Shown piece after piece: positions 33,799 through 42,201 of a stretch of 64,000 nt of DNA. Location of the stretch: the NCBI GenBank assembly GCA_001564055.1, contig LKNB01000002.1, forward strand, positions 1-64,000. The letters are read 5' to 3'. Position 1 is the first letter of the stretch. Every line of letters begins with the position of its first letter. A program made the translations under genes and the position numbers. The DNA is from Rhodothermaceae bacterium Tc-Br11_B2g6_7. Its GTDB lineage: Bacteria > Bacteroidota > Rhodothermia > Rhodothermales > Salinibacteraceae. The notes beneath the pieces were generated by a model. It saw only the letters and a list, made by a program, of their open reading frames with translations. It searched no databases and had not been told where the DNA came from.

Positions 33799-33897
33799 CG
33801 GCGCGGGGCGTGTGGAAGCGCGGATCAATGGCGGGGCTGGGTGATTCCGAAGGCGTCCCCCGACGCCCCATTTCCGCTGACCACCGCGTGCCTGCCT

Positions 33898-34980
33898 ATG
33901 TCATCATTTCCACCACTGACCAACGACCTGCTCTTGCGCGCTGCGCGGCAGGAGCCCATTCCGCGTACGCCCGTCTGGATGATGCGCCAGGCAGGACGGT
34001 ATCTTCCCGAGTACCAGGCCGTCCGCAGCACGCATGAATTCTTTGATGTGGTGCGCACCCCAGCACTGGCTGCTGAGGTCACACTGCAACCGGTGGAGCG
34101 CTTTCCGATCGATGCCGCGATCATCTTCTCTGATATTCTGGTGATCCCGCAGGTGCTGGGGCTGGAAGTGCAAATGGTAAAGGGTAAGGGGCCACACTTC
34201 CCCGATCCGCTGGCCGAGCCCGCTGATCTCTCGCGGCTGCGCACCCCGGACCCCGCGACCGATTTGGACTATGTGCTGGAAGCCCTCACCCTGACGCGCC
34301 AACGTCTGAACGGCCGCTGCCCCCTCATTGGGTTTTCTGGGGCCCCCTGGACGCTGATGGCGTACTCCATCGAGGGCGGGGGAAGCAAAAACTTCTCCGC
34401 CTCTAAGCGCTGGCTGTATCGGTACCCGGAAGCCAGTCACGAACTGCTGCAGCGCATAACAGACACCGTAATCGACTATCTGGATCATCAGATTCAGGCG
34501 GGTGCGCAATACGTACAGGTGTTTGATAGTTGGGCAGGCCTGCTGCCGCAACCCCTCTTTGAGACGTTTGCATTGCCGTACCTTGCCCAGATTGCGGAGG
34601 CCCTGACCGAGCGCCATCCCGACGTCCCTCGTGTGGTGTTTGCCAAGGGAGCGCACTATGCGCTCGACGCACTGGCAGACACGGACTACTCGGTGATCAG
34701 CCTTGACTGGACGATGGACCCTGCCGAGGCCCGCGCGACGGTCGGCTCACGGGCGGCCTTGCAGGGCAATCTCGATCCATCGGCCCTGTATGCTACCCCC
34801 GACGACATCCGCGCGCAGGTCCGCCGTATGCTGGACGCCTTCGGACCCACCGGTCATATTGCCAACCTCGGGCACGGCATGCACCCCGACCACCAACCAG
34901 CGCATGCCGGCGCGTTTGTTGACGCGGTGCATGCTATTTCGGAAGAGCTCCGCGCAGCCGATGCCCCGGCGGGCGGATGA
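33898..34980 (+). CDS. hemE: Uroporphyrinogen III decarboxylase
   Basis: This 360-residue cytosolic enzyme decarboxylates the four acetate groups of uroporphyrinogen III to give coproporphyrinogen III. It has the N-terminal signature RTPVWMMRQAGRYLPEY, the IIFSDILVIP strand, GFSGAPWTLMAY and the C-terminal LGHGMHPDH. The ATG at 33898 matches the normal family start. Its stop overlaps the start of the rluA-family gene by 4 bases. It begins the heme cluster with hemF, hemH and hemL. Confidence 0.96.
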   Translation: MSSFPPLTNDLLLRAARQEPIPRTPVWMMRQAGRYLPEYQAVRSTHEFFDVVRTPALAAEVTLQPVERFPIDAAIIFSDILVIPQVLGLEVQMVKGKGPHFPDPLAEPADLSRLRTPDPATDLDYVLEALTLTRQRLNGRCPLIGFSGAPWTLMAYSIEGGGSKNFSASKRWLYRYPEASHELLQRITDTVIDYLDHQIQAGAQYVQVFDSWAGLLPQPLFETFALPYLAQIAEALTERHPDVPRVVFAKGAHYALDALADTDYSVISLDWTMDPAEARATVGSRAALQGNLDPSALYATPDDIRAQVRRMLDAFGPTGHIANLGHGMHPDHQPAHAGAFVDAVHAISEELRAADAPAGG

Positions 34981-35711
34981 GTATTCTCTTGGACCATCCC
35001 CTCTGTCATCCGAACGGGTTAGCGATGAACGTCCCCATCCTGCATGAAGACGCCCAGCTCCTTGTTGTGTGCAAGCCGGGAGGGATGCTTTCCCAGGCGG
35101 ATGAGACAGGCGATCAGGACCTTGTCGCCTGGGCGAAGGCCTATCTGCGTAGCGCGACCCGCCCAGACCCGTATGTGGGGCTGGTGCATCGGCTGGATCG
35201 GCCGGCATCCGGTGTGATGGTGTTAGCAAAGACCCGGGCGACCGCGCGGGAGCTGTCCCGGCAGTTTCGTGAGCGGCTGCCCACCAAACGCTATGCCGCA
35301 CTGGTACGGGGCGAAACGCCACTGCTTGGCACCTGCGAAGACTACATCGCCAAGATAGACCGCACCGTGCGGATCGTAGCTCCGTCGGACCCGCAGGGCA
35401 AACGGGCGGAGCTTCGGTATCAGCGGCTTGCCAGGCAAGACGGACGCTCGCTTCTGGATGTGACCCTGCTCACGGGGCGCCCGCACCAGGTTCGGATTCA
35501 ACTGGCCACGCGTGGGCATCCGCTGGTGGGAGATGTCCGCTACGGTGGCTCCGATGCGTTCGACCGTCGCACCATTGCGCTGCACTGTTATGCCCTGGAA
35601 GTAGAGCACCCTGAAGCGCAACGCCCCATACGTAATCAGGCGCCGCTCCCCGACACCTGGCCGGCATTTGCACACGAGGCCTTAGCCTCACGCTTGCGGG
35701 CATACGAGTAG
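34977..35711 (+). CDS. RluA-family pseudouridine synthase
   Basis: This 244-residue enzyme has the RluA signature GLVHRLDRPASGV with catalytic D74, the KRYAALV strand and GRPHQVRIQLA. It isomerises a uridine in rRNA or tRNA to pseudouridine; the exact site cannot be told. It lacks an S4 domain, so it is a short RluA/RluC-like form. The ATG at 34977 overlaps the hemE stop (ATGA), suggesting translational coupling; a second ATG at 35025 is a credible alternative start. Confidence 0.9.
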   Translation: MSILLDHPLCHPNGLAMNVPILHEDAQLLVVCKPGGMLSQADETGDQDLVAWAKAYLRSATRPDPYVGLVHRLDRPASGVMVLAKTRATARELSRQFRERLPTKRYAALVRGETPLLGTCEDYIAKIDRTVRIVAPSDPQGKRAELRYQRLARQDGRSLLDVTLLTGRPHQVRIQLATRGHPLVGDVRYGGSDAFDRRTIALHCYALEVEHPEAQRPIRNQAPLPDTWPAFAHEALASRLRAYE

Positions 35712-35715
35712 CTGC

Positions 35716-36009
35716 TTAGGCGTCCATGCGATAGGGGCGCACATCCGTAGCGCAGGTGGAGGGACCGGGGAGGACGCACGCGGTATCTGTACGAAAGGGA
35801 TCGACCACAATGGGGATGTTCTGATAGGTTGCAAACTGGCCTGCTCCCCGTTGGAACTGTGCGCCGATGGCTTTGCGGAGATGCATGTAGGCGTCGGGAC
35901 CCACCACAATGTAGGCTGGCTCGGTGTCTGCATCCCGAAGTTGGCGGATGCTGTTGGTCACAAATTCCAGAATCTCATCCCGCGACGGAGCATACTCAAA
36001 AATAGTCAT
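35716..36009 (-). CDS. Small protein resembling an isolated HK97-type capsid A-domain
   Basis: This protein of 97 residues is not firmly recognised. It has an N-terminal helix (SRDEILEFVTNSIRQLRD), then AYIVVGPDAYMHLRKAIGAQF, NIPIVVDPFRTD and TACVLPGP. The order helix, 'I-V-V-G-x-x-A-Y-x-x-L', 'I-P-I-V-V-D' and a late strand is that of the A-domain of HK97 phage capsids and of the short 'A-domain' (family 4) encapsulins. No other phage gene is nearby. It is divergent from hemF by 42 bp, and its stop is 4 bp from the converging rluA-family stop. The similarity is judged by eye and needs a profile search. Confidence 0.6.
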   Translation of the reverse strand: MTIFEYAPSRDEILEFVTNSIRQLRDADTEPAYIVVGPDAYMHLRKAIGAQFQRGAGQFATYQNIPIVVDPFRTDTACVLPGPSTCATDVRPYRMDA

Positions 36010-36051: not shown

Positions 36052-37032
36052 GTGAACGCACCCCACCAGGCAACAGATTCGCCCTTACCCGCCGGTTACG
36101 AAGGCTCGATGGCGCAGCGCATGCAGCAGGCCGTGGAGGAGGGGCAGCAGCAGATCTGCGAGGGCCTGGAGGCCTTCGAGCCGGAGGCGCGCTTCCGCCC
36201 CGACCGGTGGACACGCGAGGAGGGCGGGGGAGGCCTGACGCGCGTGCTGGAGGAGGGGCAGGTCTTCGAGAAAGGGGGCGTCAATACGTCGGCGGTATGG
36301 GGCACGCTGCCTGCACGTATGGCCGAGGTGTTGAAGGTAGATGCGCTCCCGTTCTTTGCGACGGGCGTCTCGCTCGTCGTCCATCCGCAGTCGCCATACG
36401 TCCCTACAGTGCATGCGAACTTCCGCTACTTTGCGCTCGGCGAGGACCTGAGCACGCCAGAGGACGAATGGTTTGGCGGCGGCGCTGACCTTACACCCGT
36501 CTACCCCACACTGGAGGATGTCCAGCACTTCCATCAGCAGTGGAAGGACGTGTGTGAACGGCACGAAGCGGTTGCCGACTATCCTGACTTTAAAGAGCAG
36601 TGCGACACCTATTTCTATTTGCCGCACCGTGAAGAGTCACGCGGCGTGGGCGGAATCTTCTACGACTATCTGCGTTCTGACCCAGAAGCCTTGCTTGCCT
36701 TCACGAAGGACGCCATTCAGTCTTTCGTACCCGCGTACCGGCCCATCGTCCAGCGGCGCAAAGATCGGACGTACGGACCTCCGGAGGTAGCGTTTCAGCG
36801 CATCCGACGGGGGCGGTACGTGGAGTTCAACCTCGTATACGACCGCGGGACGAAGTTTGGACTGGAGACCAAGGGACGGACGGAGAGCATCCTCATGAGC
36901 CTGCCGTTGCGGGCACGGTGGCCGTACAACCACACCCCGGAGCCCGGCACCCCGGAGGCCCGGGCTGCGTGGTTTTTTACCCCGCGGGACTGGCTTCAGC
37001 TCTCGGCGGCCGATGTGCCCCCCGCAGAGTGA
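36052..37032 (+). CDS. hemF: Oxygen-dependent coproporphyrinogen III oxidase
   Basis: This 326-residue enzyme converts coproporphyrinogen III to protoporphyrinogen IX using O2. It shows the HemF motifs GGVNTSAVWGTLP, TGVSLVVHPQSPYVPTVHAN, WFGGGADLTP and YVEFNLVYDRGTKFGLETKGRTESILMSLP. A GTG at 36052 is favoured because it leaves room for the divergent small gene; an ATG at 36109 would give 307 residues, close to the E. coli length. Its use of oxygen points to an aerobic organism. It is followed by hemH across a gap with an inverted repeat. Confidence 0.95.
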   Translation: MNAPHQATDSPLPAGYEGSMAQRMQQAVEEGQQQICEGLEAFEPEARFRPDRWTREEGGGGLTRVLEEGQVFEKGGVNTSAVWGTLPARMAEVLKVDALPFFATGVSLVVHPQSPYVPTVHANFRYFALGEDLSTPEDEWFGGGADLTPVYPTLEDVQHFHQQWKDVCERHEAVADYPDFKEQCDTYFYLPHREESRGVGGIFYDYLRSDPEALLAFTKDAIQSFVPAYRPIVQRRKDRTYGPPEVAFQRIRRGRYVEFNLVYDRGTKFGLETKGRTESILMSLPLRARWPYNHTPEPGTPEARAAWFFTPRDWLQLSAADVPPAE

Positions 37033-37088: not shown

Positions 37089-37176
37089 TTCAACAGTGGA
37101 TAGGAACTGCCGCCCCCGCCAAAGTTCTAATTCCTGTACCTTTATAGATACTGCTTCAACCCAAACCTGCCCTGCT

Positions 37177-38472
37177 ATGACGCCTCTGGAGTTTCTCAAG
37201 GATTACGCGTACGACGAACGGCTGGTGACGGGTGAATATTACTCCGATGACCCAGTCCAAGTAGAAGAAGGGGACACCGTGGGCGTCGTGCTGATGAACC
37301 TCGGGGGGCCGAACACCACCGATGACGTACAGCCGTTTCTCTACAACCTGTTCATGGACCCGGCCATCATCGATATTCCGGTGAAGGGTCGGGCACGGCA
37401 TTGGTTGTGCAAAGCGATTTCGTCGCTGCGTGCGCGCTCCGTGGCGGAGGATTACGAGTTGATTGGCGGCGGATCGCCAATCAATCGGCTTACGGAAGAG
37501 CAGTCGGAAAGCCTTGAGCGGACGCTAAACGCCAACTTTGGCGATGAGGCGGGGGTCACGTTCCGGACGTACATTGCCATGCGGTACTGGCATCCGTTCA
37601 CTGAGGAAGCGGCCGCGCAGATGGAAGCTGACGAGGTGGATAAGGTGGTCCTGCTGCCGCTCTATCCGCAATACTCGAAGACGACCACCGGCTCCTCGCT
37701 CATTTACTGGTGGATGCTCGAGGAAAAGGGCGAGATTCCCTCGTGGCCGGTTTCGTATGTTTTTGAGTATGCGGCCAATCCCAAGTATATTCAGGCCATC
37801 AGCGAGCGCATTGATGAGGGGCTACAGCGCTTTCCGAAGCACATCCGTGACGACGTCCACTTTGTCTTCAGCGCCCACGGCACGCCCCTCAATGAGATGA
37901 TCGACCGCCGCGATCCATACTGCTGCCTCGTGCACTCCACCGTGGAGCGGGTGATGGCGCAGCGCGGTTACGACATGCCGTACCACGTGGCCTTTCAGAG
38001 CAAGGTGGGGCCTGCCGAGTGGCTCACGCCGGGTACGCCCGACAAGCTGGAGGAGCTGGCCCACCAAGGGCACACCGCGACGCTCGTGATCCCGGTGGCG
38101 TTTGTGACAGAGCACGTAGAGACATCGTACGAGCTCGACATCGAAGTGCGCGAGGAGGCTGAGGAGGCGGGCATCGAGCACTACGAGGTTATGCCGGCGC
38201 TTAATTGCCACCCGCTGTTCATTGACGCCCTGGCCGAGGCTACCGTTGCGCAGGTAGAACTACCAGGCCAGAAACCGCCGACAAGTCTTGGTGGGGATGG
38301 GATGGCCACGGATTACCCCTTGCGCCCGCTTTGCGAGATGCCGCGCTACTCGGCAAAACACCGGTACACGCGTTGCCATCAGTGCGAGCTCATCACCGAA
38401 GCGCGTCGCTGGACGACGAATGGGGAGGACGAGGTACCCACGGTATCGGCCAACCCGCCACAAGAGCAATAA
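37177..38472 (+). CDS. hemH: Ferrochelatase with C-terminal cysteine cluster
   Basis: This 431-residue enzyme inserts Fe2+ into a porphyrin at the end of heme synthesis. It has VGVVLMNLGGP at the start of the core, LLPLYPQYSKTTTGSS, catalytic H234 in FSAHGTP and TEHVETSYELDIE. The core ends near residue 360. A C-terminal extension carries C386, C400 and C403 (C-x13-C-x2-C), which could bind a [2Fe-2S] cluster as in some other ferrochelatases. The ATG at 37177 is used because an extension to 37096 has no family similarity. It precedes a methyltransferase-like gene by 25 bp. Confidence 0.95.
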   Translation: MTPLEFLKDYAYDERLVTGEYYSDDPVQVEEGDTVGVVLMNLGGPNTTDDVQPFLYNLFMDPAIIDIPVKGRARHWLCKAISSLRARSVAEDYELIGGGSPINRLTEEQSESLERTLNANFGDEAGVTFRTYIAMRYWHPFTEEAAAQMEADEVDKVVLLPLYPQYSKTTTGSSLIYWWMLEEKGEIPSWPVSYVFEYAANPKYIQAISERIDEGLQRFPKHIRDDVHFVFSAHGTPLNEMIDRRDPYCCLVHSTVERVMAQRGYDMPYHVAFQSKVGPAEWLTPGTPDKLEELAHQGHTATLVIPVAFVTEHVETSYELDIEVREEAEEAGIEHYEVMPALNCHPLFIDALAEATVAQVELPGQKPPTSLGGDGMATDYPLRPLCEMPRYSAKHRYTRCHQCELITEARRWTTNGEDEVPTVSANPPQEQ

Positions 38473-38497
38473 GCCCAAGCGCGCACCAAGGTCAGCC

Positions 38498-39058
38498 ATG
38501 CATTCATCATCCGAAAGACGTGTGGCGTTTTCGCATGAGCTGCTGAAGACCTTTGCTGCGGTGCCTGTGGCATCGGCCCTGCTGGTACGAGAAGACCAAC
38601 CCGCGGGCCATGCCGAAGCCCTCGTGCGATTGGGTTTTGCAGTGGAGGTCCGTGTGCCGGTAGCAGAACAAGCACTGGTCGAGCGCGAGCTTATCGCGCA
38701 CCACCCCGGGCCCCTGTCGTGGAGTGTACACGCCATCGGCGAGCCGCTGGCAGAGGCTGCGTTCGACTGGGTGGTGTGGGCCCTACCTGCCGACCCGTCC
38801 CCAGGCGCCATTGCCGCCGAGCTTGCGCGTATCCGTACTGCCCTCCGTCCGGGAGGATGGTGCTACCTTTTCAGCCCGGAGGGGTCCGTCGCGTCCGAAG
38901 ACCAAGCAGCTTCGACGGCACGGCCGTACGCCCCGCGTCACTTAACGGCATGGGCTGACACCGCGCAACTCGTAGAGGCTGCCACTCCATGGTATGTCGC
39001 TGAAGAGGAGGCGCTGCACGCGATCTACCGCCGAGTCGAATCCGATACGCCTGTGTAA
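38498..39058 (+). CDS. SAM-dependent methyltransferase-like protein
   Basis: This protein of 186 residues has the second half of a class I methyltransferase fold: FDWVVWALPADPSPG followed by LARIRTALRPGGWCYLFSPEG, resembling motifs IV and V of UbiE-type enzymes. The glycine-rich SAM motif I near the N-terminus is not obvious, so cofactor binding is uncertain. It sits between hemH (25 bp) and hemL (153 bp) on the same strand and may be co-transcribed with hemH. No substrate can be proposed. Confidence 0.6.
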   Translation: MHSSSERRVAFSHELLKTFAAVPVASALLVREDQPAGHAEALVRLGFAVEVRVPVAEQALVERELIAHHPGPLSWSVHAIGEPLAEAAFDWVVWALPADPSPGAIAAELARIRTALRPGGWCYLFSPEGSVASEDQAASTARPYAPRHLTAWADTAQLVEAATPWYVAEEEALHAIYRRVESDTPV

Positions 39059-39211: not shown

Positions 39212-40537
39212 ATGTCCGTAGCTACCGAACCCAAGCCCTCCACCACCACCAGTGCAGCGTTTTTTGAGCAGGCGCAGGAGGTGATTCCCGGCGGCGTGAA
39301 TTCGCCGGTGCGCGCCTTCAAAAGTGTGGGCGGCACGCCCCTGTTCATCGACAAAGCCCACGGGGCGTACATGACTGACGCCGATGGCAACCAGTACGTC
39401 GATTACATCGGCTCGTGGGGGCCCATGCTCTTCGGGCACGGGGATGAGGATGTGGTGTCGGCTGTGCAACGCGCAGCCGAAGACTCCACCTCATTCGGGG
39501 CGCCCACACGTATTGAGATCGATGTGGCGCAGTTGGTGGTGGACATGGTGCCGTCGGTGGAGAAGGTGCGCATGGTGAACTCCGGTACCGAGGCTACCAT
39601 GAGTGCCGCGCGGCTTGCCCGTGGGTTCACTGGGCGCGATAAGATCATCAAGTTTGAGGGCAACTACCACGGGCACGGGGATTTCTTCCTGATCGCGGCC
39701 GGCTCGGGCGCGGCCACGTTTGGCGAGCCGAACTCACCCGGCGTGACGCCGGGCAATGCCAAAGACACGCTGCTTGCGCGCTACAATGACCTGGATCATG
39801 TCGAGTCACTGGTCGAAGCGAATCCAGATGAGGTGGCCTGCATCATCCTGGAGCCGCTGGCCGGAAACATGGGCTGTGTGCTGCCTGAGCCCGGCTTTCT
39901 GGAAGGCCTGCGCGCGATCTGTGACAAACACGACATTGTGCTGATCTTCGATGAGGTAATGACGGGCTTTCGCGTAGCCCGAGGCGGGGTGCAGGAGCGG
40001 TTTGGCGTTACCCCGGACCTGACCACGCTCGGTAAGATCATCGGCGGTGGGCTGCCCGTTGGAGCTTACGGCGGTCGCAAGGAGATCATGGACTTTGTCT
40101 CCCCTACGGGGCCCGTCTACCAAGCGGGCACGCTCTCCGGCAATCCCCTGGCGATGCGAGCAGGCTTCACGGTGCTAAAAAAGATAGCCGAAACCCCTGA
40201 TCTGTACGACCGACTGGAAACGTACGGCGCAGCCCTGGAAGACGGTATGCGGAAAAACATGGAGGACCTCGGCTTGAACTATTACATGACGCGGGTGGGC
40301 TCCATGGGCTGTCTCTTTTTCAACGAAGACCGCGTAGTGGACTTCGACACAGCACAGCAGTGTGATTTGAAGCGGTACGGCCGCTACTTCCACGCGATGC
40401 TGGAGGAAGGCGTCTATCTCGCTCCCTCCCAATACGAGGCCTACTTCTTCTCCCTGCGCCACGGTGAAGACGAGCTGGAGCGTACCCTAAAAGCCAACCG
40501 AAAGGCGCTGGAGCGGGCACACGCGCCAGCGGCATAA
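39212..40537 (+). CDS. hemL: Glutamate-1-semialdehyde 2,1-aminomutase
   Basis: This 441-residue PLP enzyme makes 5-aminolevulinate from glutamate-1-semialdehyde, the last step of the C5 route into heme. Clear motifs are PGGVNSPVRAF, NSGTEATMSAARLARGFTGRDKIIKFEGNYHGH, IIFDEVMTGFRVA in a closely related form and the PLP lysine K275 in TLGKIIGGGLPVGAYGG. It shows the organism uses the C5 rather than the Shemin route. It ends convergently with the DUF5687 permease gene, 53 bp apart. Confidence 0.96.
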   Translation: MSVATEPKPSTTTSAAFFEQAQEVIPGGVNSPVRAFKSVGGTPLFIDKAHGAYMTDADGNQYVDYIGSWGPMLFGHGDEDVVSAVQRAAEDSTSFGAPTRIEIDVAQLVVDMVPSVEKVRMVNSGTEATMSAARLARGFTGRDKIIKFEGNYHGHGDFFLIAAGSGAATFGEPNSPGVTPGNAKDTLLARYNDLDHVESLVEANPDEVACIILEPLAGNMGCVLPEPGFLEGLRAICDKHDIVLIFDEVMTGFRVARGGVQERFGVTPDLTTLGKIIGGGLPVGAYGGRKEIMDFVSPTGPVYQAGTLSGNPLAMRAGFTVLKKIAETPDLYDRLETYGAALEDGMRKNMEDLGLNYYMTRVGSMGCLFFNEDRVVDFDTAQQCDLKRYGRYFHAMLEEGVYLAPSQYEAYFFSLRHGEDELERTLKANRKALERAHAPAA

Positions 40538-40590: not shown

Positions 40591-42072
40591 TCAGTCCTCT
40601 GCTGTCCGAAATCCGGCAGCCATGATGTAGCGGCGCTGCGTGAGTTGCCGCCCGAGGAGGTGAGCCCAGGGCCAAGCCAGCAGCATGTTGAAAAGCCCAA
40701 GAGCGGCGACCAGTGTGATGGCGGTGGCAGGCGTGCTGCCAAAGCCGACAAGCAGCGCGGCAGGCGGCGCCACGGTAGGGAGGAGCCACAGCCAGTGCCA
40801 GAGGGAGAAACCCTGGTAGTTAAAAAAGTGCCCTTCACTGGTGCTCACCCGCTTCTGGTTACGCACGGCCAGCGTTAGCATGAGCACACTTGTGACCCCC
40901 ACATTGTAAAACAGAAAGGCCACATGTAGCGTCAGCAGTCGTGGTGCCAGCCACCAGAAGAAGGGCAGGCAGATCAAGAACATGGCCAGGCAGGACAGCT
41001 GCAACACCATCAGCTTGGCGAGGACCAACTGCTGCGGGGACAGATCGCGGCTGAGTAGCCCATCAAAGTGCCGGCTTTCCCAGGCGAACATCAGCTGGCC
41101 ATAATTAAGTGCGAATGCACCGGAGGCAAAAAGCCCCAGAAACGCATCCATGAGCGGGCCGCGGATCACGTTGTAGTCGGAAAGCAGCAGCCCTGTGTAG
41201 AGCACAGCAAGGACTACGGAGACATAGGCGTACTGCTTGGGCCGTTTGGTGCGGAGCATCATCTTCAGCTCCAGCACCACGAGGTTATGCACCAGTCCTG
41301 ATCGAAACCGTACGAGGCGGCTCCAGAGCGAGGGACGTCGCTGCACGTGTCGTGAGGATCGTAGCGCGGAGTGAAGGCCCTGTGTCGTAAGGAGCGCCAG
41401 GCTCCCAATCAGCACCCCCAGTATGCCGAGCAGCAGCCCATTGCCAGCAGCCAGGCTGTTGAACAGTTGCGCCGATGCCACGCTCGTCCACCCAGCCCCA
41501 ATCCACTGGTCGATGATTTGTGTCACGGCCAGAAGGATCAGCAGGGCCCCGGCCACCCGCAGCCTGCGGTCGAGCAAGAGGCGAAACGCCAGCGTTCCGA
41601 GATGACTGAGCGCCAGGCACGCCAGCACGCCCAATCCCCATACGACGGCTCCTCCGATCGGCACTACCGGACGCACGTGCTGCAGCCAGAAGGGCACAAG
41701 GAAAAGCAGGGGGAGGATATTATGGAGGCTGACAAGCGAACTCCACTGAAAGTAGGCGACCAGCGACGTGCGGGGCAGCGGAAGGTGCAGATACGGCGTC
41801 ATTCGCAGCCGCGGTGGACGCTGAAAAAAGAAGCGCGCGCCCAGCAACCCTACGAGCAGCCCGAGAAGGTAGTCGTTTAACAGCGCCAGCGCCGTGGTGT
41901 CGATCGACAGGAACTCCAAAAACCGGTCGGCAAAGTAGCCAGCCCCGACCAGCGTGGCGGCAATGTACAGCAAGAGCGGAACCACGGCAAAGCCAAGCCA
42001 CCAACGAGGACGTACCACATGGCGGTAAAAGCTCTGCCAGTGATGGCGCAGCAGAAGGGCGTACGTGTGCAC
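40591..42072 (-). CDS. DUF5687-type ABC transporter permease-like membrane protein
   Basis: This 493-residue protein has about twelve hydrophobic segments in two halves with a basic central loop (SSRHVQRRPSLWSRLVRFRSG), followed by LELKMMLRTKRPKQ, the pattern of DUF5687 proteins of Bacteroidota. These are usually encoded beside an ABC ATPase, but none is adjacent here. A GTG at 42072 gives the usual short cytoplasmic start (MHTYALLLRHHW); a TTG at 42180 would add 36 residues. The gene is preceded by the DJ-1/PfpI gene on the same strand. Confidence 0.75.
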   Translation of the reverse strand: MHTYALLLRHHWQSFYRHVVRPRWWLGFAVVPLLLYIAATLVGAGYFADRFLEFLSIDTTALALLNDYLLGLLVGLLGARFFFQRPPRLRMTPYLHLPLPRTSLVAYFQWSSLVSLHNILPLLFLVPFWLQHVRPVVPIGGAVVWGLGVLACLALSHLGTLAFRLLLDRRLRVAGALLILLAVTQIIDQWIGAGWTSVASAQLFNSLAAGNGLLLGILGVLIGSLALLTTQGLHSALRSSRHVQRRPSLWSRLVRFRSGLVHNLVVLELKMMLRTKRPKQYAYVSVVLAVLYTGLLLSDYNVIRGPLMDAFLGLFASGAFALNYGQLMFAWESRHFDGLLSRDLSPQQLVLAKLMVLQLSCLAMFLICLPFFWWLAPRLLTLHVAFLFYNVGVTSVLMLTLAVRNQKRVSTSEGHFFNYQGFSLWHWLWLLPTVAPPAALLVGFGSTPATAITLVAALGLFNMLLAWPWAHLLGRQLTQRRYIMAAGFRTAED

Positions 42073-42201
42073 AGGCAGCGCGGAGGAATCAGCATGGGGT
42101 GGGGTGTCGCGGGGTGCAAAAATGACGCCATTCCAGGCGCCTGTGCCTACGCCGTACAAACGCGGAGGGGACCGGCCCAACCACGATGTAGCGGGTGATA
42201 T

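Follow-up and report, generated by a model that had tools for sequence, protein, structure and literature searches.

A Family 4C encapsulin-like A-domain protein in Rhodothermales and its variable linkage to hemF

In the HK97 fold, the A-domain forms the centres of the capsomers, and the P-domain, the E-loop and the N-arm hold the shells together. An encapsulin in the strict sense is defined by self-assembly into a closed icosahedral shell and by a dedicated cargo enzyme. Family 4 was defined as the A-domain encapsulins by Andreas & Giessen 2021 (PMC8346489), who found bacterial members of Family 4C only in Rubricoccus and Rhodothermus, without a clear enzyme partner, observed that heme biosynthesis genes were enriched near them, proposed small pentameric facets, and described the carriers as all being thermophilic anaerobes from vents (PMC8346489). 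The sole partner reported for the family as a whole is GAPDH, through a complex with an A-domain protein in a P. furiosus proteomics study cited in the same paper (PMC8346489).

The protein encoded at 35716-36009 of the window (the whole stretch of 64,000 nucleotides that was analysed) is a further member of this already described Family 4C. The initial annotation took a bacterial member beside heme genes to be new, but such members had been published in 2021, with their heme genes noted (PMC8346489). The protein resembles them in matching the family model over its full length, in being bacterial, in lacking an obvious operon, and in having heme genes nearby. In contrast to the two genera of 2021, carriers here span 10 family-level groups and include a genome with an O2-dependent hemF. 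The published description of thermophilic anaerobes does not fit this genome, whose sister is a MAG named GSL.Bin2, in which GSL presumably stands for Great Salt Lake.

An A-domain-only member of Family 4C

The NCBIfam model NF041192 ("family 4C encapsulin nanocompartment shell protein"), whose curated cut-off of 90 bits is the criterion for Family 4C membership, matched the protein at 132.5 bits (E=4e-39) over positions 1-95 of 97, that is, over the full model. The length of 97 aa fits the ~100 aa of the family, and both the AlphaFold2 (AF2) model and Foldseek indicate an A-domain and nothing else. The gene is, further, an orphan without a clearly associated enzyme operon, since hemF is divergent, rluA is convergent, and the neighbours vary. 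The AF2 model (mean pLDDT 94, pTM 0.86) has the element order E-H-E-H-E-E-H-E, and its first-ranked PDB match in Foldseek was 2PK8 (Pyrococcus PF0899), with a probability of 1.00 and a TM-score of only 0.58, followed in ranks 2-6 by the phage D3 capsid, a Haliangium encapsulin and HK97. No single Foldseek E-value was strong (best 0.03), as is to be expected of a domain this short (97 residues), but the top-ranked structures are consistent with the sequence evidence: a profile of the 42 orthologues described below found 2PK8 as the sole significant PDB chain (E=2.6e-4). The family score, the model and the comparison with HK97 folds thus bear out the initial reading of a lone, family 4 encapsulin-like HK97 A-domain.

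Relative to Families 4A and 4B, represented by PF08967 and 2PK8, the window protein shares the fold and the profile match but scores only 14.3 bits with PF08967 (ENCP4), below the gathering cut-off of 31.4, and lacks an upstream enzyme partner gene. Among the orthologues, 24 of 42 matched PF08967 at E<=0.1 (best 4.6e-6), and three weakly matched family 1 encapsulins. HK97-type phage capsids and family 1 encapsulins have the A-domain topology in common with it; unlike them, it has no P-domain, E-loop or N-arm, and with these domains missing a classical lattice is unlikely.

The gene is real and strongly conserved. The 42 orthologues are collinear and alike in start and length, and dN/dS was 0.02-0.17 over the 11 orthologue pairs for which it was computable (of 12 compared, one had saturated synonymous change), including 0.044 for the window gene against its nearest relative, a 91%-identical sister genome. 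Hence, it is not a chance ORF and is under purifying selection. A scan for sigma-70 promoters and terminators found nothing.

Table 1. Coordinates of the A-domain gene, its neighbours in the window, and related loci
Feature	Position	Strand	Evidence
Family 4C encapsulin-like A-domain protein, 97 aa (ATG-started ORF, 36009->35716)	35716..36009	-	NF041192, AF2, Foldseek, 42 orthologues
hemE, uroporphyrinogen decarboxylase	33841..34980	+	PF01208 E=3e-141
RluA-type pseudouridine synthase, convergent neighbour	34977..35711	+	PF00849 E=2e-30
hemF, coproporphyrinogen III oxidase, divergent neighbour	36052..37032	+	PF01218 (Coprogen_oxidas) E=2e-122
hemH, ferrochelatase	37096..38472	+	PF00762 E=1e-104
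hemL-like aminotransferase class III	39212..40537	+	PF00202 E=1e-75
Lone A-domain protein, prophage	L086:3962-4267; same gene in L094, G047 contig 170	+	hhalign, ENCP4
4C-DUF427 close/overlapping pairs, groups f9 and f12	L050, L054, L061, L066, L068, L069, L072, L073, L074	same strand	

Distribution and linkage to hemF

Within the order Rhodothermales, 42 of 114 genomes, in 10 family-level groups, carry one clear orthologue each. This count leaves out a 43rd match, in genome G075, which has an inner stop, was missed by the profile and is regarded as a chance match; G014 and G021 gave weak profile matches that overlap long unrelated ORFs (in G021, that of a kinase/TPR-like protein), and these were likewise set aside as chance. 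Clear matches occurred nowhere outside the order among 297 genomes sampled from the phylum and 146 from the class, and tblastn gave no match in phage and plasmid records. The gene tree tracks the family labels, with 11 changes where the minimum possible is 10, which points to vertical inheritance with losses.

In the window, hemF lies upstream in the opposite direction, and the neighbours are hemE, an RluA-type pseudouridine synthase gene, hemF, hemH and hemL (Table 1), in agreement with the divergent arrangement and the absence of phage genes described initially. The start codon of hemF is uncertain (GTG at 36052 or a later ATG; the Pfam match begins near 36118). Two further genes of the neighbourhood differ from, or recur in, related loci. 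The gene between hemH and hemL (38459-39058) has no Pfam match in the window copy, which may have lost its cofactor motif; in relatives (L083, L088), the intervening gene encodes a SAM methyltransferase. A DUF5687 membrane protein gene lies at 40591-42180 (-), and in relatives its homologue adjoins the gene of an ABC transporter ATPase close to the 4C gene.

The initial annotation named conservation of the hemF linkage as a check, and the carriers do not support a functional meaning of this link. In 15 of 42, namely three genomes from the window's genus and carriers in groups f5, f7, f8 and f11, the divergently oriented neighbour is hemF; in three, the f9 genomes, hemF lies elsewhere in the genome, and the remaining 24 (f4, f6, f12 and f13) lack it. 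Nor does the 4C gene co-occur with hemF, since hemF is present in 18/42 carriers and also in 28/72 non-carriers. G067, a genome of the same family that lacks the 4C gene, keeps the order rluA-hemF-hemH-hemL (locus L079), with ~90 bases separating rluA and hemF. Neighbours are also swapped: loci without hemF often have hemH in that position, and some of those in f6 and f13 have the 4C gene immediately after the gene for an ABC transporter ATPase. A convergent RluA-type gene adjoins the 4C gene in most loci outside f9/f12; apart from hemF, the carrier loci were searched for a constant neighbour and none was found. Taken together, the hemF absences, the non-carrier order and the swapped neighbours indicate that the heme linkage is a map position and not a requirement. 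Thus, hemF is excluded as a general cargo, and the adjacency to heme genes is inherited chromosomal order in some lineages, not a shared pathway.

These patterns bear on two explanations that give heme synthesis a larger role. It is very unlikely that the protein acts, without a shell, as a heme-synthesis partner or regulator of HemF/HemH. As this would predict, most loci outside f9/f12 have hemF or hemH as the divergently oriented neighbour, but the missing co-occurrence, the order kept in relatives such as G067, and the loci after the ABC transporter gene speak against it, as do f9, in which the 4C gene stands apart from heme genes, and f12, which is without hemF. A closed shell, that is, a true nanocompartment enclosing an enzyme that might be HemF or a different heme enzyme, is quite unlikely. 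The name encapsulin, the pentameric facets proposed in 2021 (PMC8346489) and the enrichment of heme genes nearby all favour such a shell; against it stand the lack of shell-holding domains in so short a protein, the carriers without hemF, and the fact that an adjacent hemF is divergent and not in an operon with the 4C gene.

Lone A-domain proteins in phages

In one genome of the order, G047, the 42-member profile also found a second, divergent protein (E=2.4e-6), which is encoded in a prophage; the assembly is a metagenome-style draft. It aligns with the 4C proteins at an hhalign probability of 96.9 (E=1.7e-10), matches Pfam ENCP4 (E=5e-4), and, in the reverse search, had a 4C gene as its top hit in many genomes. 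Its gene is flanked by those of a P22-type portal (E=5e-27) and a terminase large subunit (phrog_2, E=4e-8). It adjoins the gene of an Abi_C-domain protein (phrog_23253), which, with a phrog_9159 protein encoded nearby on the same prophage contig (L086:3005-3766 and L094:7280-8446), possibly belongs to a defence or accessory gene cluster. Elsewhere, Foldseek against viral models (BFVD) matched the fold to small lone proteins of Bacillus phages. In Bacillus phage SP-15, the protein SP15_204 (L090:1435-1749, 104 aa) reached a profile E=7e-5, within that record alone, and an hhalign probability of only 56%, and may be regarded as a lead, not proof, for a further lone A-domain homologue. When viral contigs were searched, neither the profile nor the prophage protein yielded a confirmed relative.

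That phages carry lone A-domain proteins offers an origin for Family 4 alternative to truncation of a host capsid gene. Specifically, the family may have been captured from phages that already encoded lone A-domain accessory genes, instead of eroding from a host-resident capsid gene, and the host copy might still act on capsid assembly, as a decoy or sensor; we consider this scenario speculative and unlikely. A related explanation, in which the host has domesticated a phage accessory protein whose A-domain mimics the capsid and disturbs phage capsid assembly or is sensed during it, is improbable: the reciprocal match in the prophage, with its place between terminase and portal genes and beside an Abi_C protein, and, more weakly, SP-15 would suit it, but the chromosomal gene differs from typical defence genes in being single-copy, syntenic and strongly held by purifying selection, and it is set among housekeeping genes.

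Conserved residues and candidate partners

Across the alignment of the 42 orthologues, G37, D70, P71, R73 and P81 are invariant and Y41, R54 and C78 nearly so, mainly in or near the loops that follow the strands at 31-36 and 65-69 of the AF2 model, a placement that would be fitting for an interface or a binding site. Of these, the polar residues D70 and R73, with C78, Y41 and R54, might alternatively belong to a ligand-binding or active site. That the protein is a small enzyme or ligand binder reusing only the A-domain fold is nevertheless rather unlikely, given that the 97-aa protein matched no family with a catalytic annotation in Pfam or NCBIfam and that a conserved interface explains the invariant residues equally well.

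The Family 4C protein, as a vertically inherited A-domain, is most likely a small non-catalytic structural partner, an explanation to which we give about even weight. The data show its fold, homology, conservation, inheritance and independence from hemF; we infer that it would self-associate in a ring-like manner, by analogy to the capsomer centre, and that it would bind and stabilise an enzyme of wide occurrence, in the way reported for its archaeal 4B relative and GAPDH. Against such a structural partner stand the neighbours that differ between lineages, the weak single Foldseek E-values with the low TM-score to 2PK8, and the conserved polar residues that might mark a ligand or catalytic site.

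One candidate for a partner in some lineages emerges from the gene order itself. Specifically, in 11 of the 12 genomes of f9 and f12, a DUF427 gene (PF04248) lies downstream on the same strand, close to or overlapping the 4C gene (Table 1), an exception to the orphan arrangement of the family. DUF427 is not a universal partner, because it is absent from all seven f11 genomes, and could be at most an f9/f12 partner.

Overall, our results widen Family 4C from two genera to a gene, apparently vertically inherited, across much of Rhodothermales, and remove the tie to heme synthesis at which the published work had hinted. The DUF427 gene provides a testable partner lead in two family-level groups, and the phage-encoded lone A-domain homologue bears on how A-domain encapsulins arose.
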